Assembly (NCBI RefSeq): GCF_001695855.1 | Contig: NZ_MBSS01000023.1 | Span: forward strand, 124,001 to 188,000 | Reading direction: 5' to 3' | Length of the DNA: 64,000 nucleotides | Source: Ensifer sp. LC163 | GTDB lineage: Bacteria > Pseudomonadota > Alphaproteobacteria > Rhizobiales > Rhizobiaceae | Part shown: piece after piece, positions 1-40,752 of the stretch | How the letters are laid out: every line of letters starts with the position of its first letter | Position numbering within the stretch: position 1 is the stretch's first letter | The notes under the pieces: model-generated | Told to the model about the DNA's origin: nothing | The model's input: the letters and a program-made list of their open reading frames with translations, nothing else | The model's database searches: none | Program-made: the position numbers and the translations under genes

Positions 1-339
1 GGTGCGGAGGACACCTTTGTCGAGGATATTTTCGAGTTCGAACCGGCTAGCGCCGAATTGCTGCCATTGGTCGACAAGGTCTGGCGCTACTGCGAGGCGC
101 ACGGGATGAGCGGCAAGACAGTGACGGTCAAAGTGAAATACTCGGACTTCACCCAGGCGACGCGAAGCAGAACGCTCGGCGCACCGGTCGGCGGGATGCC
201 TGAAATATTGGAGGTGGCAGTTGCGCTGCTCAGATCGGTCCACCCATTCAAGCGCGGCGTGCGCCTGCTTGGCGTCACCCTGTCATCGCTCAACGGCAAT
301 GATGAGGAAGCCCGCTCACAACTAGAACTTTCTTTCTGA
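1..339 (+). CDS. dinB: DNA polymerase IV (DinB), C-terminal part
   Basis: The frame is open from base 1 to a TGA at 339, so the 5' part of the gene lies outside the window; 112 residues are visible. They match the little-finger domain at the C-terminus of Y-family polymerases, with the strand VTVKVKYSDFTQATRS followed near the end by GVRLLGVTLSSL. Pol IV is an error-prone translesion polymerase in the cytoplasm; the little finger holds DNA and carries the clamp-binding tail. The catalytic palm is not visible, so activity cannot be judged. Rhizobia usually have several dinB copies, and which one this is cannot be told from here. The gene converges on the small RNA that follows on the other strand. 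Confidence 0.85.
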   Translation, partial: GAEDTFVEDIFEFEPASAELLPLVDKVWRYCEAHGMSGKTVTVKVKYSDFTQATRSRTLGAPVGGMPEILEVAVALLRSVHPFKRGVRLLGVTLSSLNGNDEEARSQLELSF

Positions 340-359
340 AGATTGGTCTGTCTTGCAAC

Positions 360-516
360 GAAAAAGCCTGCCGCGGGAGGAGGTGCGGCAGGCTCTTGAA
401 CAGACTGAATGGCAACCGGGAGGAGGAGTATCGCCATTCCGACAAGCGCTCGTTGGGAGGAGGAGAAAGCGCCTGCACACTCGAAGTCCTGCGGGAGGAG
501 ATGCATCGCTTCGATG
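360..516 (-). ncRNA. alpha-r14 / NfeR1-like trans-acting small RNA
   Basis: On the minus strand the motif CTCCTCCC (an anti-Shine-Dalgarno sequence) occurs four times, at plus-strand 493-500, 455-462, 418-425 and 375-382, spaced 37-43 bases apart. Each copy sits in the loop of a hairpin: TCGAAG/CTTCGA (stem arms 481-486 and 509-514), GCGCT/AGCGC, GAATGGC/GCCATTC, and finally a 10 bp stem followed by a run of U. Repeated CUCCUCCC loops ending in an intrinsic terminator are the hallmark of the alpha-r14 family (NfeR1/Smr14C2 of Sinorhizobium) and of the related cuckoo RNAs, which bind ribosome binding sites of target mRNAs. The 3' end near 360 is set by the terminator. The 5' end is inferred from the first hairpin and may lie between about 480 and 520. 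No convincing protein is encoded here. Confidence 0.72.
361..394 (-). terminator. Intrinsic terminator of the small RNA
   Basis: On the minus strand AGCCTGCCGC and GCGGCAGGCT form a perfect 10 bp stem (arms 365-374 and 385-394) around a loop holding CTCCTCCC, followed at once by TTTTT. The poly-U tail exists only on the minus strand, so it ends the small RNA and not dinB, although the hairpin could also stabilise the dinB transcript end. Confidence 0.8.
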
Positions 517-597
517 AGTTGACCATACAAGAAACCGCCCGATTTCGTAGGTCGAAGTTCGCAGACCAGCCATGCGCTCCGCGCCGGTCGGACGGGC

Positions 598-1569
598 TCA
601 TCGGGCCTTGAAGCGCTCGAAAGCCGTCAGCCGCACCATTGGCGGATCGGCCTCGCTCCAGCGGTAGATTTCGGTTCTGAGGTAGCGAAGCTCCTCGTTC
701 AGCCCCTCTTCAGCGATCTCGATCCACCAGGATTTGGGGCGCCCGTCGCTGCCGTCGGACCAGCGGTAACCGCGGCCCTTCAGATGATCCTTCATTTCGA
801 AGGGGCTGTTTTCCGCATAGAGGCGGACGCGCGATCGCTGGCTTGCCGCATAGAGTTCGGCAAACGGTGTCTGCTGCGGCTGATCAGCGGGGCCGGCGAT
901 CACCTCAAGCAGGGCAAAGCAATCGTCGACGGCGCGATGGCCGTCATGGAAATATCCCGCCTGTCCGATGAGATAGCCGAGCTTCGTGCCCTCGAAACCG
1001 CGGTCGCTCCAGCCGATCTCCGAGACCGAGCAGGCCCAGGCCTTCTTCTCGAAGATCGGCGAGAAGGCCTCGCAAAACGGCCGGTCGAACCCGGCATTGT
1101 GGGCGATGATCAGATCGGCGCGTTCGACAATGGCCTGAAGCCGGACAAGGTCGATCGTCTCGCCGGCGACCATTTCGTCTGTGATTCCAGTAATGCGCGT
1201 GATTTCGGCAGGAATGGGTCCGCTCGGCTGCCGCAGACCACCATAGACGTCGATCACGTCGCCGATGGCCCCATGAGCGTCGAAGGTGAACGCAATGACG
1301 CCGATCTCGATGATCTCGTCCTTGCGATGGTTGAGGCCCGTGGTCTCGGTGTCGAGGATGACGCCGACGAGCGGAAACTCCGCTCGCGGCTCGGCCACGA
1401 CGGGACGCGCCTCGAGCTTCTGCAGAACGCGGTAGCGACCCGTCGCCTCCAGATGATCGACCATGGCCCCGGCGCTCATGCCGACAGCCGCGCGTTGGGA
1501 CGCGCGCTTGGAGCGTGTCCCCTTCTCGTCCGGATCGGACAAAACAAACATGTCGTATTGCAATGCCAT
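598..1569 (-). CDS. DnaQ-like 3'-5' exonuclease (DEDD family)
   Basis: A 323-residue protein with an RNase T/DnaQ exonuclease domain at about residues 60-225. The first catalytic motif is ILDTETTGL, then IIEIGVIAF, the second motif NAGFDRPF and the third HRAVDDCFALL; these hold the Asp/Glu metal ligands and the His general base. It probably trims single-stranded DNA 3' ends. It is longer than the stand-alone epsilon subunit of Pol III, and a C-terminal region of about 90 residues (YAENSPFEMKDHLKGRGYRW onward) is typical of a rhizobial 'exonuclease' paralogue, not the replicative proofreading subunit. The ATG at 1569 is chosen because GGAGAAGGG lies about seven bases upstream; an in-frame ATG at 1644 lacks such a site. 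Confidence 0.85.
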   Translation of the reverse strand: MALQYDMFVLSDPDEKGTRSKRASQRAAVGMSAGAMVDHLEATGRYRVLQKLEARPVVAEPRAEFPLVGVILDTETTGLNHRKDEIIEIGVIAFTFDAHGAIGDVIDVYGGLRQPSGPIPAEITRITGITDEMVAGETIDLVRLQAIVERADLIIAHNAGFDRPFCEAFSPIFEKKAWACSVSEIGWSDRGFEGTKLGYLIGQAGYFHDGHRAVDDCFALLEVIAGPADQPQQTPFAELYAASQRSRVRLYAENSPFEMKDHLKGRGYRWSDGSDGRPKSWWIEIAEEGLNEELRYLRTEIYRWSEADPPMVRLTAFERFKAR

Positions 1570-2011
1570 CAGCCCTTCTCCCGGAACTTTTGGTGAAAGG
1601 GAAGACCGAGCGCCCATCGCGCCATCACTTTCCCGCTCTGTCAACAGACCTATGGCGAGAGGGCCGGATTTAGCCTGGGAAAACCTGTCATCGGGCGATC
1701 ACGCCGCAGCCGATGATCGACGTGGGAGACGGTGCGGACGTGATCCTCATCTGCGATCTGGAACCGGGCCGACCGACGTTCCTACAGGGCGCTGGGCGCG
1801 CCCGATTGCCCGGGTGCGGGCGCAACTGCAGTGCGGCGCGACGGTCTGCTCTACCTGCAGCGGCTCGCTGCTACGGAAGCCGGCCTGCTCGACGACAAGG
1901 ACGCCGCCGCGCACCCCCTCCCGCCTCCGCCGACAGCGCAAGCAGGCACGACAGACTCTCGTTCTCGAAGCGTCGGACGGGCGCCATCCTTGGCGCCCGG
2001 TAGGGTCTCAA
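1570..2011. other. Gene-poor stretch between exonuclease and ridA-like gene
   Basis: No reading frame here has both a ribosome binding site and a recognisable product. Short open frames on both strands (for example 1713-2003 plus and 1747-1941 minus) are rich in Arg, Pro and Ala, as expected from random high-GC DNA. The region should hold the exonuclease promoter at its left edge and the terminator of the RidA-like gene at its right edge. Confidence 0.5.
1979..1998 (-). terminator. Hairpin downstream of the RidA-like gene
   Basis: A perfect inverted repeat, GGGCGCCA and TGGCGCCC with a four-base loop, 13 bases beyond the RidA-like stop codon on the minus strand. There is no clear U run, so it may be a weak terminator or an mRNA-stabilising stem. 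Confidence 0.5.
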
Positions 2012-23608: not shown

Positions 23609-26008
23609 CTATCCCACCTGCCTGAACGTCCGGCGGCTGCGGCTCAACGCGATCGACTCGGCCGCATCGAGGATGGAGTCGGTATCGATACCGAAATGCG
23701 CGTAGAGGTCGGCGATCGTACCCGTCTGCCCGAAATGCTCGACGCCGAGCGATACGGTCCGGTGGCCATGCACCGATCCGAACCAGCCGAGCGCGGCGGG
23801 ATGACCATCCGTCACCGTAATGATCTCGCACGTATCGGACAGCGGCGCCAGCAGCGCCTCGATGTGGCTTTCCGCACCGTGATGGCCGTTACGGCGGGCA
23901 CGCTGGGCCGCGGTCCAGCCGGCGTTGAGCCGGTCGGCCGACGTCACCGCCAGCACCGCGACATCGCGATGACGTTCCGCAAGCCGCCCGGCCGCCATCA
24001 GCACTTCGGGGGCGACGCAACCTTGATAGGCCAGCACCAGCTGAGTGTTCGGTCGCGGCTCGCGCAGCCAATAGGCGCCGTCGATCACCCCCTGGCGGAA
24101 GGCCGCATCCTCGCGGCGCTGCATCTGTTCCAGCGGACGGGTCGTCAACCGGAGATAGACGGAACCGCCCGTCGTATCGCGCAGCCATGTCCGTTCGTCA
24201 TGCACGGCGTCGCCGTTACGCTGCATATAGTCGAAGGACCAGTCCATGATCACCGAGAGCTCGTCGAGATAGGCGGGCTCGAAGCTGGCAAGCCCGTCCT
24301 GGCTCATGCCGATCAGTTGCGATCCGATCGACTGGTGGGCGCCGCCCTCAGGCGCCAACGTGACGCCCGACGGGGTGCCGACAATCATGAACCGCGCATC
24401 CTGGTAGCAGGCATAATTCAGGGCATCGAGTCCGCGCGCCACGAACGGATCGTAGACCGTGCCGATCGGTAGCAGGCGCTCGCCGAACACCGAATGGGAA
24501 AGACCGGCCGCACCTAAGAGCAGGAAGAGGTTCATCTCGGCAATGCCGAGCTCGATATGCTGTCCACCGGGACCGAAGGCCCATTTCTGCGCCGAGGGAA
24601 CCTTCTCGTCGCGGAACGTGTCGGCCTGCATTTCTCGGGCGAAAAGGCCGCGCCTGTTGACCCAGGGCCCGAGATTCGTTGAGACGGTCACGTCTGGCGC
24701 CATCGTCACGATGCGCGCGGCAAGCGCGTCGTCGCGCTGTGCCAGGGCATCAAGGATCTTGCCGAAACCCGCCTGGGTGGAAAGCTCGCGATCATCAAGG
24801 AGAACCGGCCCGGCAGATGCTACCGGTTCCGACTTGAACCGCCGGGTGCCCTTGGCAAAGAACGGCACGCTTTTCAGAAAGGTCTTCGCTGCCTCGGCGT
24901 CGGCAACCGCCGCAAACTCCTCCCATTCCTCGCCGGCGCTGACCCCAATCTTCTGCTGGAAATCCTGCATCTGTGCCTTCGTCATCAGGCCGGCATGGTT
25001 ATCCTTGTGGCCGGCCAGCGGCGTTCCCCAGCCCTTGATCGTATAGGCGAGAAAGACCGTCGGGCGGTCATGGTCGATGCTTGCAAAGGTCTCGGCAAGC
25101 GTCTGGATGCAATGGCCGCCGAGATTGCTCATCAGCTCGGACAGCTCGTCGTCGCTGCGCGAAGCGAGCAGCTTGCTGACATTGCCCTGGTCGCCGATCT
25201 CGTCCTGCAGCCGCTTGCGCCAGGCACTGCCGCCCTGGAAGGTCAAGGCCGAATAGAGCTGGTTGGGGCAGCGATCGATCCAGGCCCGCAGGGTTTCGCC
25301 GCCGGGTTCCTTGAATGCAGCTTCCTGCAAGGCGCCATATTTGACGACCTTCACGTCCCAGCCGAAAGCCGTGAAGATCGCTTCGATCCGTTGCCACAGG
25401 CCTTCGCGAACGACACCGTCGAGGCTCTGGCGGTTGTAGTCGATCACCCACCAGGTATTGCGCAGGTCATGCTTCCAACCCTCCTGCAGGCACTCATAGA
25501 TATTGCCCTCGTCGAGCTCCGCATCGCCGACGAGCGCGATCATGCGGCCGTCGCTGCGCTTTCGTGCCCAAGGCTTCGACGCGATGTAGTCCTGAATGAT
25601 CGAGGCGAAGGCGGTGATGCCGACACCCAGACCAACGGAGCCGGTCGAAAAATCCACGTCGTCGATATCCTTGGTGCGGCTCGGGTAGGATTGCGCGCCG
25701 CCGAAACCGCGGAAATTCTCAAGCTTCTCGCGCGTCTGGTTGCCCATCAGGTACTGGATGGCATGGAAGACTGGTGCCGCATGTGGCTTGACCGCCACGC
25801 GATCCTCCGGCCGAAGGATGTGGAAGTACAGCGCCGTCATGATCGAAACGATCGATGCGCAGGACGCCTGATGTCCGCCGACTTTCACCTCGCCTTTTTC
25901 CCTGACGTGGTTGGCGTTGTGGATCATCCAGCATGCATGCCAGAGAACCTGCCGCTCCAGATCCTTCAGGCATTTCAGCGTGGCGGTCGGCAAAATCGGA
26001 TTTTCCAT
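23609..26008 (-). CDS. 2-oxoacid dehydrogenase E1, homodimeric type (MdeB/AceE-like)
   Basis: A 799-residue thiamine diphosphate enzyme of the transketolase/AceE class. The ThDP-binding motif is GDAELDEGN...WWVIDYNRQSLDG (residues ~165-205), with an N-terminal GGHQASCASIVSIMTALYF substrate channel region and a pyrimidine-binding domain around QHIELGIAEMNLFLLLGAAG. AceE of E. coli is ~887 residues; this is somewhat shorter. No E2 or E3 gene is near, so it must borrow them or act alone. With a divergent Lrp-family gene it matches the Pseudomonas mdeB-mdeR layout, where MdeB oxidises 2-oxobutyrate from methionine. The methionine lyase gene mdeA is absent here. GGGAGGAG precedes the ATG. Confidence 0.85.
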   Translation of the reverse strand: MENPILPTATLKCLKDLERQVLWHACWMIHNANHVREKGEVKVGGHQASCASIVSIMTALYFHILRPEDRVAVKPHAAPVFHAIQYLMGNQTREKLENFRGFGGAQSYPSRTKDIDDVDFSTGSVGLGVGITAFASIIQDYIASKPWARKRSDGRMIALVGDAELDEGNIYECLQEGWKHDLRNTWWVIDYNRQSLDGVVREGLWQRIEAIFTAFGWDVKVVKYGALQEAAFKEPGGETLRAWIDRCPNQLYSALTFQGGSAWRKRLQDEIGDQGNVSKLLASRSDDELSELMSNLGGHCIQTLAETFASIDHDRPTVFLAYTIKGWGTPLAGHKDNHAGLMTKAQMQDFQQKIGVSAGEEWEEFAAVADAEAAKTFLKSVPFFAKGTRRFKSEPVASAGPVLLDDRELSTQAGFGKILDALAQRDDALAARIVTMAPDVTVSTNLGPWVNRRGLFAREMQADTFRDEKVPSAQKWAFGPGGQHIELGIAEMNLFLLLGAAGLSHSVFGERLLPIGTVYDPFVARGLDALNYACYQDARFMIVGTPSGVTLAPEGGAHQSIGSQLIGMSQDGLASFEPAYLDELSVIMDWSFDYMQRNGDAVHDERTWLRDTTGGSVYLRLTTRPLEQMQRREDAAFRQGVIDGAYWLREPRPNTQLVLAYQGCVAPEVLMAAGRLAERHRDVAVLAVTSADRLNAGWTAAQRARRNGHHGAESHIEALLAPLSDTCEIITVTDGHPAALGWFGSVHGHRTVSLGVEHFGQTGTIADLYAHFGIDTDSILDAAESIALSRSRRTFRQVG

Positions 26009-26131
26009 GTCGGCTCCTCCCAGAACCCGGAAACGCTACACCCGACCGCGCGAAATATCCGATCTATCTTTGTTGGAAATTTTGCCGATACCGGCAATAC
26101 TGACCGATGAAACGCCATTTTGGGAAATTTC

Positions 26132-27443: not shown

Positions 27444-27563
27444 AAACGGCATCCCGGTCGCTTGGAGGAGAGGTCGGCATGCCAGCCTTGCGCAATTGGG
27501 TGTCCTGATCGATGACGGACATCACAGGCCGCAAGACGCGGTTGATCGCCTGGGAGGAGCGAA

Positions 27564-28127
27564 ATGGTCCGGATAATCGAATTCTGCTTCCTGATGCTGA
27601 AGGTTGCCATCGCGCTTCTGCTTGCGGGCATGGTCCTGCTCGTCTTCGGCAATGTCGTGCTGCGCTATGCCTTCAATACCGGCATCACCTATTCCGAAGA
27701 GCTGTCGCGCATCTTCTTCATCTGGCTGACCTTCCTCGGCGCCGTCATCGCGATGCGGGAACACTCCCATCTCGGCGTCGACTCGCTGCTGCGCCGCTTG
27801 CCGCCGCTCGGCGCGAAGGTCGCCATTCTCTGCGGACAGGCGCTGATGCTGGGCGCAACATGGCTGATGATAAGTGGCAGCTGGACGCAGACGCTGATCA
27901 ATTTGCATGTGGCAGCGCCGGCGACCGGCATTTCCATGGGGTTCTTCTACGGCGCCGGCCTCGCCTTCGGCATTCCCGCCTTCCTGATCATCCTCTGGGA
28001 CGCGTTTTGCGTGCTGACCGGCCGCATCGATGTGGCGACGGCCGAATTCGTGCGCGACAGCGAGGATCAAGCCGTCCTTGATGACCACCCGGCGCCTTCG
28101 CTCGCCCACCCAATCGCAAAGCCCTGA
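27564..28127 (+). CDS. TRAP transporter small permease (DctQ-like)
   Basis: A 187-residue inner membrane protein with four membrane segments and the family motif NVVLRYAFNTGITYSEELSRIFFIWLTFLGA. It joins the large permease and is essential for TRAP function. The C-terminal ~30 residues are a polar tail. GGGAGGAGC precedes the ATG. It is the first gene of a five-gene operon reaching 33323. Confidence 0.88.
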   Translation: MVRIIEFCFLMLKVAIALLLAGMVLLVFGNVVLRYAFNTGITYSEELSRIFFIWLTFLGAVIAMREHSHLGVDSLLRRLPPLGAKVAILCGQALMLGATWLMISGSWTQTLINLHVAAPATGISMGFFYGAGLAFGIPAFLIILWDAFCVLTGRIDVATAEFVRDSEDQAVLDDHPAPSLAHPIAKP

Positions 28128-39850: not shown

Positions 39851-39930
39851 CGGGCATGGGGTCGCGATCACCCCACGAGGCGACAGCCGAAGCATCGCGT
39901 CCATGCAACCGCTCAGACGGAGGACGCGTT

Positions 39931-40752
39931 ATGCCGTCACTTCTGGAAATTTCACCGGAAAAACTTGCCCGCCTTATCGGCACTCCCAAATGCCCTGCGC
40001 TTATCGATGTCAGGATCGACGAGGATTTCGATGCCGATCCGCGCCTGATCCCCGGATCACTGCAGCGTGACTACCGTTTCGTGCAGGACTGGGGCAAAGA
40101 CTTCGCTGAGCGGTCCGCAGTCATCATCTGCCAGCGCGGCAAGAAGCTGAGCCATGGCGTCGCCGCCTGGCTTCGACACGCCGGAATTCCGGCCGACGTC
40201 CTGGAAGGCGGATTTGAGGCATGGGCGGAAGCCGGTTATCCGGCTGTGCCCGCGTCCACGGTGCCAAACCGCCAGACGAGCGGACACACGCTCTGGGTCA
40301 CGCGCGCTCGCCCGAAAATCGACCGTATTGCCTGTCCTTGGCTCATTCGGCGCTTCGTCGATCCAAATGCCGTTTTCCTGTTTGTCGCACCGGCCGAAGT
40401 CGAAGCGGTGGCAGAGCGTTTCGACGCCACGCCTTTTGACATCGACGCCCCGATCCGTTGGAGCCATCGGGGCGACCGCTGCACCTTCGACGTGATGGTG
40501 GAGGCGTTCGGGCTGGAAACGGAACCGATGCTGCGGCTGGCAACCATCGTACGAGGCGCAGACACAGCGCGCCTCGACCTTGCCCCCGAGGCTGCCGGCC
40601 TGCTTGCGGTTTCGCTCGGGCTCTCGCGCATGTATGCAGACGATCATGAGCAACTGGAGGCAGGTATGCTGCTCTATGACGCCTTCTACCGCTGGTGCCG
40701 CGACGCCACCAGCGAAACGCACAACTGGCCCTCGCCGAAGAAGGGCGCATGA
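39931..40752 (+). CDS. Rhodanese-ChrB chromate resistance protein
   Basis: A 273-residue protein in two parts. Residues ~8-115 are a rhodanese domain (CPALIDVRIDEDF; active-site Cys67 in ICQRGKKLSHGVAAWLRH; DVLEGGFEAWAEAGYP). Residues ~130-270 are the ChrB C-terminal domain (HTLWVTRARPKIDRIACPWLIRRFVDPNAVFLFV; LGLSRMYADDHEQLEAGMLLYDAFYRWC). ChrB activates or is needed for chromate-induced chrA expression. The rhodanese may link sulphur metabolism or sulphite/thiosulphate to chromate detoxification. GGAGG precedes ATG 39931, and chrA starts one base after the stop. Confidence 0.87.
   Translation: MPSLLEISPEKLARLIGTPKCPALIDVRIDEDFDADPRLIPGSLQRDYRFVQDWGKDFAERSAVIICQRGKKLSHGVAAWLRHAGIPADVLEGGFEAWAEAGYPAVPASTVPNRQTSGHTLWVTRARPKIDRIACPWLIRRFVDPNAVFLFVAPAEVEAVAERFDATPFDIDAPIRWSHRGDRCTFDVMVEAFGLETEPMLRLATIVRGADTARLDLAPEAAGLLAVSLGLSRMYADDHEQLEAGMLLYDAFYRWCRDATSETHNWPSPKKGA

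Follow-up and report, generated by a model that had tools for sequence, protein, structure and literature searches.

A run of regularly spaced anti-Shine-Dalgarno (anti-SD) motifs in Ensifer sp. LC163 raises the question of whether the locus encodes a small RNA and, if so, of what kind. The locus lies near the start of the window, by which we mean the whole stretch of 64,000 nucleotides that was analysed. Between 360 and 516 there are exactly four copies of CTCCTCCC on the minus strand, with start-to-start steps of 38, 37 and 43 bases. The whole window holds 8 copies, against 2.5 expected, and at least 8 were seen in 1 of 100 shuffles; half of the 8 are the four at this locus. The minimum-energy fold of 516-355 (-58.3 kcal/mol, z -2.85, equalled by 0 of 200 shuffles) consists of four successive hairpins with one motif in each loop. 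In the ensemble, the mean unpaired probabilities of the motifs, from 5' to 3', were 0.95, 1.00, 0.95 and 1.00, compared with 0.45 for the whole RNA. CCUCCUCCC is complete in three of the loops, and the 5' loop reads UCUCCUCCC. A U run follows the last hairpin, and together the two look like an intrinsic terminator. An earlier note on this DNA had described four minus-strand motifs at 37-43 base spacing, each in a loop, and a terminator with a U run; both the count and the fold agree with that description.

Table. Positions of the locus, its neighbours and candidate target sites in the window. Counts for the -10 box and CTACGA come from an alignment of 27 four-motif loci (23 from the genus and 4 from other genera).
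Feature	Position	Strand	Basis or remark
Four-hairpin ar14-type sRNA (~159 nt), SmelA099 homologue	358-516	-	RF02344 match, pSymA 1328334-1328175 alignment, model R1
Hairpin 1 (5'-most; beyond the Rfam model)	481-514	-	anti-SD motif CTCCTCCC at 493-500; fold and covariation
Hairpin 2	442-476	-	anti-SD motif CTCCTCCC at 455-462; fold and covariation
Hairpin 3	407-439	-	anti-SD motif CTCCTCCC at 418-425; fold and covariation
Hairpin 4, also putative intrinsic terminator with U run (36 nt)	362-397	-	anti-SD motif CTCCTCCC at 375-382; fold and covariation
Presumed -10 box TATGGT	522-527	-	TATAGT/TATATT in 20/23 aligned genus loci
CTACGA (-35 position; 17-base distance to the -10 box)	545-550	-	23/23 aligned genus loci, 0/4 loci of other genera
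GGCG-N6-GCAT, in place of the NfeR1 LsrB box	572-585	-	starts 69 bases before 516
Y-family DNA polymerase gene, 3' end, convergent neighbour	1-339	+	IMS_C domain, Pfam PF11799, 2.4e-25
Exonuclease-domain gene, upstream of the sRNA; conserved synteny anchor	598-1644	-	Pfam PF00929, 1e-16
GGGAGGAG site upstream of a dctQ-type TRAP transporter gene (27564-28124), candidate target	27552-27566	+	predicted pairing energies of the four loops, -17.4 to -21.7 kcal/mol
GGGAGGAG site upstream of a transketolase-like gene (26008-23612), candidate target	26006-26021	-	predicted pairing energies of the four loops, -16.9 to -22.9 kcal/mol

The same note had likened the architecture to that of the alpha-r14 (NfeR1) RNAs, and the covariance model of the Rfam family ar14 (RF02344) bears this out. 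It matches 482-359 with 95.7 bits, well over its cut-off of 58.8, across model positions 1-123 of 123. When all Rfam families were run at their curated cut-offs, two matches were obtained in the window, and ar14 is one of them. The features of ar14 are present: the anti-SD motifs are unpaired in loops, the letters of the stems are variable, and the U run comes after the last hairpin. RF02344 takes in three hairpins from 482 and leaves the fourth, 5'-most motif outside the model. The idea of an extended member with four motifs was thus right, with a 5' hairpin added to the three of ar14. The window RNA also fits the class RFMSmelA099, which is defined by four hairpins in succession whose loops are CCUCCUCCC-like. 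According to Reinkensmeier et al. (2011, PMC3927594), CCUCCUCCC motifs sit in three hairpin loops in RFMSmelA075 and in four in RFMSmelA099, and the authors propose that both belong to one family in which the number of modules differs. Because the four-loop form is already in print, the window locus would be no new extension; its RNA is very probably a further member of the published family, a clear four-hairpin ar14 sRNA.

Several other identities were considered and rejected. CcsR1 (RF02791) scored 24.9 bits, under its cut-off of 65.3, ar7 (RF02342) scored 26 bits, under its cut-off of 60, and a match to mraW was weak and under its cut-off; the Rfam matches at the locus include none named cuckoo. 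NfeR1 proper, the product of the SmelC397 gene, was set aside because the window RNA has four motifs and not three. Elsewhere in the window, a chrB-a cis-regulatory RNA (RF03078) was found at 39853-39933 on the plus strand (79.2 bits, cut-off 43.9).

A BLAST search of plasmid records aligned the locus with the minus strand of Sinorhizobium meliloti 1021 pSymA at 1328174-1328393 (78.6% identity, 89% of the query). SmelA099/smrA6 (SMa6570) is tabulated as a 160-nt RNA on the minus strand of pSymA at 1328175-1328334 (PMC2873474, Table 4; PMC7143759, Table 1). It was found by deep sequencing (PMC2873474), and according to Table 1 of PMC7143759 it is expressed in the nodule zones ZII, IZ and ZIII. 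By alignment, the ends of the SmelA099 transcript map onto window positions 516 and 358. The window transcript would end at about these two positions, in agreement with the limits of 360-516 first suggested for it. In all likelihood, judging from these comparisons, the locus encodes a trans-acting sRNA of ~159 nt, which is the Ensifer counterpart of SmelA099 and represents the ar14 (NfeR1-type) family in its four-hairpin form.

We searched for this form with R1, a covariance model of the four-hairpin RNA, run on 199 genomes from the family with the stricter filters of Infernal. R1 scores the window RNA at 165 bits, the window sequence itself being part of the model. Matches of at least 111 bits were obtained in 26 of the 199 genomes and in 14 of 109 genera, where the cut is the gap at which match length drops from 167 to 119 nt, some of the positive genomes supplied model sequences, and the count of 26 may be too low since matches below 111 bits include some of ~150-170 nt that may be four-hairpin RNAs. 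At E <=0.001, with three-hairpin copies included, 179 genomes have some match and 20 have none. Among 80 named loci that surround relatives of the exonuclease gene, a loose count finds a motif cluster in 44. In 43 of these the arrangement is that of the window, with the cluster ~100-550 bases downstream and on the strand of the gene; the other cluster, at L076, is on the opposite side. The best named match of the exonuclease protein is in Ensifer adhaerens SD006 (97% identical). Four-motif copies were also noticed on a Rhizobium leguminosarum plasmid (L148:2056-2228) and an Agrobacterium pAt plasmid (L149:2056-2226); both plasmids are typed conjugative, and a pRiA4b ORF-3 family gene lies ~700 bases upstream of each copy.

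The LC163 genome holds five ar14 copies above the cut-off and two weak ones. Three of the five have three motifs, L001 and L002 in tandem and L003 on its own; the other two, L004 and the window copy, have four. The weak candidates, L006 (41.2 bits) and L007 (38.9 bits), were rejected as ar14, being below the cut-off, without CTCCTCC in the match and not among the matches at curated Rfam cut-offs. These sub-threshold ar14-like stretches (L006:1501-1611 and L007:1501-1620) possibly belong to other sRNA families, and an ar35 sRNA (RF02346, 65.9 bits) lies at L007:869-1006 on the minus strand, ~500 bases from the weak ar14-like match.

The window copy (L008) and a copy on contig C19 (L030) are 95% alike in the RNA and 93% in the promoter, and just 53% alike in the flanks. 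We made the same comparison in seven genomes with two four-motif copies each, A beside the exonuclease gene and B elsewhere, leaving out further copies such as those of G014. Within a genome, A and B are 90-100% identical in the RNA and 80-97% in the promoter, with flanks 35-53% alike; across genomes, the A copies share 79-97% of their flanks, 74-96% of their promoters and 87-97% of their RNAs. Five pairs are highly alike (L030/L008, L012/L032, L014/L035, L009/L029 and L010/L031), with RNAs at 95-100% and flanks at 35-53%. In G003 the A and B RNAs are identical, and the flanks of its B site resemble those of G004 (79%) and G015 (87%). The A and B RNAs of G004 and G015 themselves differ by ~8-10%, and in the A/B comparison these two genomes did not have the conversion-like pattern. 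Taken together, the percentages would fit gene conversion, or a cassette copied repeatedly, in some of the genomes. We tentatively entertain, with rather more doubt than belief, a wider reading in which the Ensifer four-hairpin RNA is a self-contained cassette from promoter box to terminator, copied or gene-converted within the genome, with near-identical paralogues in unrelated surroundings. If so, the RNA would be a dosage-controlled, multi-copy and multivalent Shine-Dalgarno blocker whose number of loops is tuned by hairpin gain and loss.

Copying of this kind could also mean that the window copy is a silent or redundant duplicate, conserved but without useful expression, whose sequence is maintained through copying from an active paralogue. 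The five copies above the cut-off and the likeness of the window and C19 copies in RNA and promoter, with such different flanks, speak for this, as does the finding that one of six S. meliloti NfeR1-type copies was clearly seen on Northern blots under the conditions tested there (PMC7143759). By analogy with those copies, the window copy might be weakly expressed. On the other side, deep sequencing detected SmelA099, with expression listed for three nodule zones; all 15 same-genus genomes searched retain at least one four-motif copy together with the promoter-like stretch; and 43 of the 80 named loci preserve the location downstream of the exonuclease gene. We consider a silent cassette unlikely and prefer to see the window RNA as a probably transcribed counterpart of SmelA099.

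The candidate targets of such an RNA are genes preceded by a complementary Shine-Dalgarno site. GGGAGGAG stands 3-10 bases before an ATG at 54 sites in the genome, compared with 9 for the reversed pattern. An ORF of at least 100 aa opens at 36 of these sites, and 33 of the 36 have a Pfam match; the 18 sites with shorter ORFs and the 3 without a Pfam match were dropped. Transport components account for 17 of the 33 annotated ORFs and, in a small control, for 2 of 18 (one-sided Fisher p 0.004). The 17 are 9 periplasmic solute-binding proteins, 2 ABC permeases, 2 ABC ATPases, a xanthine/uracil-type permease, an MFS carrier, a FadL-type outer membrane protein and a TRAP DctQ subunit, and both transport ORFs among the controls are ABC ATPases. 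The control consisted of the Shine-Dalgarno sites CAGGAGAA and AAGGAGAA, with 143 sites (40 and 103); loci for 30 of each yielded 23 ORFs of at least 100 aa, of which 18 had a Pfam match. Some ORFs are fragments, truncated where a locus ends, and others may be false frames. The AAGGAGAA set was inflated by a dispersed repeat, whose copies gave no ORF of 100 aa and so dropped out.

This repeat, centred on AAGGAGAAAATTATG, has 39 exact copies in the genome (for example G000:C1:65407-65421) and none in the window. Among 14 copies compared, similarity extends over most of 105 bases, and the palindrome TTAAATCGGAATCGATTTAAGG is present in most. The Rfam family BASRCI27 weakly matches one copy, below its cut-off.

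The transport-gene bias of perfect GGGAGGAG sites fits a role in the control of nutrient uptake, and most of the predicted targets of NfeR1 likewise code for transport proteins (PMC7143759). Binding-protein genes may, on the other hand, just prefer strong Shine-Dalgarno sites. The GGGAGGAG list would be common to every ar14 paralogue, perhaps also to AbcR-type RNAs, and is not specific to the window copy. NfeR1 silences ntrB through anti-SD pairing and a block of translation, and a match of 8 bases is enough (PMC10746234). In the ntrB start region of the LC163 genome, with a start codon of our choosing, the best duplex reached -15.6 kcal/mol, and 210 of 300 shuffles were as good or better. Duplex energy thus does not support ntrB, the best-documented target of NfeR1, as one that the window RNA shares.

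A broader action can also be imagined, in which the loops mimic the anti-SD tail of 16S rRNA and hold any strong Shine-Dalgarno sequence, damping translation with no specific set of mRNAs. We take the CUCCUCCC loop to resemble the 3' end of 16S rRNA, and count this in favour of such a damper together with the 54 perfect 8-base sites before ATGs. The sufficiency of 8 bases in the published ntrB case (PMC10746234) points the same way. The perfect GGGAGGAG sites are, however, enriched for transport genes relative to other Shine-Dalgarno sites, if with a small control, and NfeR1 has defined targets (PMC7143759, PMC10746234). A general damper therefore seems to us quite improbable, and we favour an sRNA that acts in trans on a set of mRNAs. 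In the mechanism we propose, transcription from the promoter-like stretch, given its position, would take in all four hairpins, up to the terminator. By analogy with the NfeR1 work, each CUCCUCCC loop would pair in trans with Shine-Dalgarno sites of the GGGAGGAG type, and this pairing would block translation and lower mRNA or protein levels, mostly in nutrient transport. The four loops would act redundantly, as the anti-SD motifs of NfeR1 are functionally redundant (PMC7143759). Compared with three loops, four could hold more mRNAs per RNA or raise the chance of a hit, and a single RNA might block several mRNAs at once. The benefit of a fourth identical loop is now directly testable, since the extra hairpin is conserved, covaries and is part of a sequenced S. 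meliloti transcript.

Alternatively, the locus could encode an ordinary three-hairpin ar14 RNA beginning at ~482, with CTCCTCCC at 493-500 as mere promoter or leader DNA. The Rfam model starts at 482, and hairpin 1 is the least covarying of hairpins 1-3 and the weakest of the four, with an interior loop between stems of 6 and 3 bp. Folded alone, the first 39 nt of the sRNA reach -9.3 kcal/mol; a 34-nt piece without the 3' arm of hairpin 1 adopts another fold. However, SmelA099, 160 nt long by sequencing, contains the fourth hairpin by alignment, and motif 1 is invariant in 64 aligned sequences, with changes on both sides in 5 of 9 stem pairs. Because the genus-conserved presumed -10 box and the mapped 5' end of SmelA099 both lie upstream of the fourth motif, we do not prefer the three-hairpin RNA and regard it as very improbable. 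With the four-hairpin RNA that we favour, the Rfam annotation sets the 5' end ~34 nt too far downstream and omits one of the four binding loops.

The promoter-like region has a spacing resembling that of NfeR1. The NfeR1 promoter has an LsrB box, TGCA-N6-GCAT, at -72 to -60 (PMC10746234). The corresponding box in the window is two positions off the published one, so that LsrB control of the window sRNA is a suggestion; the exact box is found in L015, L036, L053 and L061. In the window and 15 of 17 further loci, the LsrB-type box begins 69-70 bases before the C/T of a (C/T)ATCGA signature near the start. The exceptions are L020, with 77 bases, and L002, with no match; three-motif copies among these loci are just L002, L053, L061 and L065, and the L001 and L003 types were left out. 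In L053, L061 and L065 the signature directly precedes the first of the three hairpins. In these copies the distance from promoter to start has thus been kept, and the extra hairpin lies between the start and the other three.

Conservation was assessed in 64 distinct four-motif sequences from same-genus genomes, other genera, named records (mostly Rhizobium) and S. meliloti. They remain from 67 four-motif runs after removal of L041, L047 and L051, which are three-hairpin RNAs beside an additional motif. The steps between motifs are all 34-46 bases. All 64 sequences have identical motifs 1 and 4, and motifs 2 and 3 are almost as constant; the end of the third loop in L017 is CCU in place of CCC. 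The consensus structure has 38 pairs, with 98.2% of cells paired and changes on both sides in 23 of the 38. The covariation score was 0.322, compared with 0.183 in shuffles, and 0 of 500 shuffles reached any of five measures; since the structure was derived from the same alignment and the shuffles keep relatedness, these counts are supportive and do not amount to a probability. When partners were slid by 1-3 columns, pairing fell to 35-47% and the covariation score to at most 0.084.

The four hairpins differ in how they vary. Covariation is strong in hairpins 2 and 3, with both-sided changes in 7 of 8 and 8 of 9 pairs, respectively. It is far lower in hairpin 1 (helices 1 and 2), where 97-99% of cells are paired and the both-sided changes come to just 10 cells. 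Hairpin 4 has 12 consensus pairs and 99.5% of cells paired, and 7 of its pairs never vary. Fixed or nearly fixed loops combined with the freely changing stems of hairpins 2 and 3 are the mark of an RNA acting via its loops. A small mRNA or dual-function RNA, with a peptide from the ATG before motif 1, was rejected as barely credible: the ATG is present in 60 of the 64 sequences, but the frames that it opens run from 9 to 199 aa and are shifted by non-triplet steps in spacing, pairing and loops are conserved and not codons, and the conserved protein frame that the earlier note had held to speak against an sRNA is absent.

The window RNA can be compared with several known systems. It shares its loop motif with CcsR1 (RF02791), the conserved CCUCCUCCC motif stress-induced RNA, whose model has two hairpins. 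It would also fit the cuckoo RNA family, which Reinkensmeier and Giegerich are said to have defined in 2015 by 2 to 4 neighbouring hairpins whose loops carry CCUCCUCCC. SmelA075 (RFMSmelA075), by its description, has the same loop motif in three modules, one hairpin fewer than in the window (PMC3927594, PMC2873474). NfeR1/SmelC397 (ar14, RF02344), going by the Rfam model and the descriptions of NfeR1, has anti-SD loops, a terminator and a promoter box at about the same distance as in the window; it has three hairpins, and the window RNA has one more at its 5' end. SmelA099 differs from the window RNA in sequence (78.6% identity over 89% of the query). Like the window RNA, it has four consecutive hairpins with CCUCCUCCC-type loops, a length of 160 nt compared with ~159 nt, homologous ends, and the same region of -10, CTACGA and GCAT boxes.
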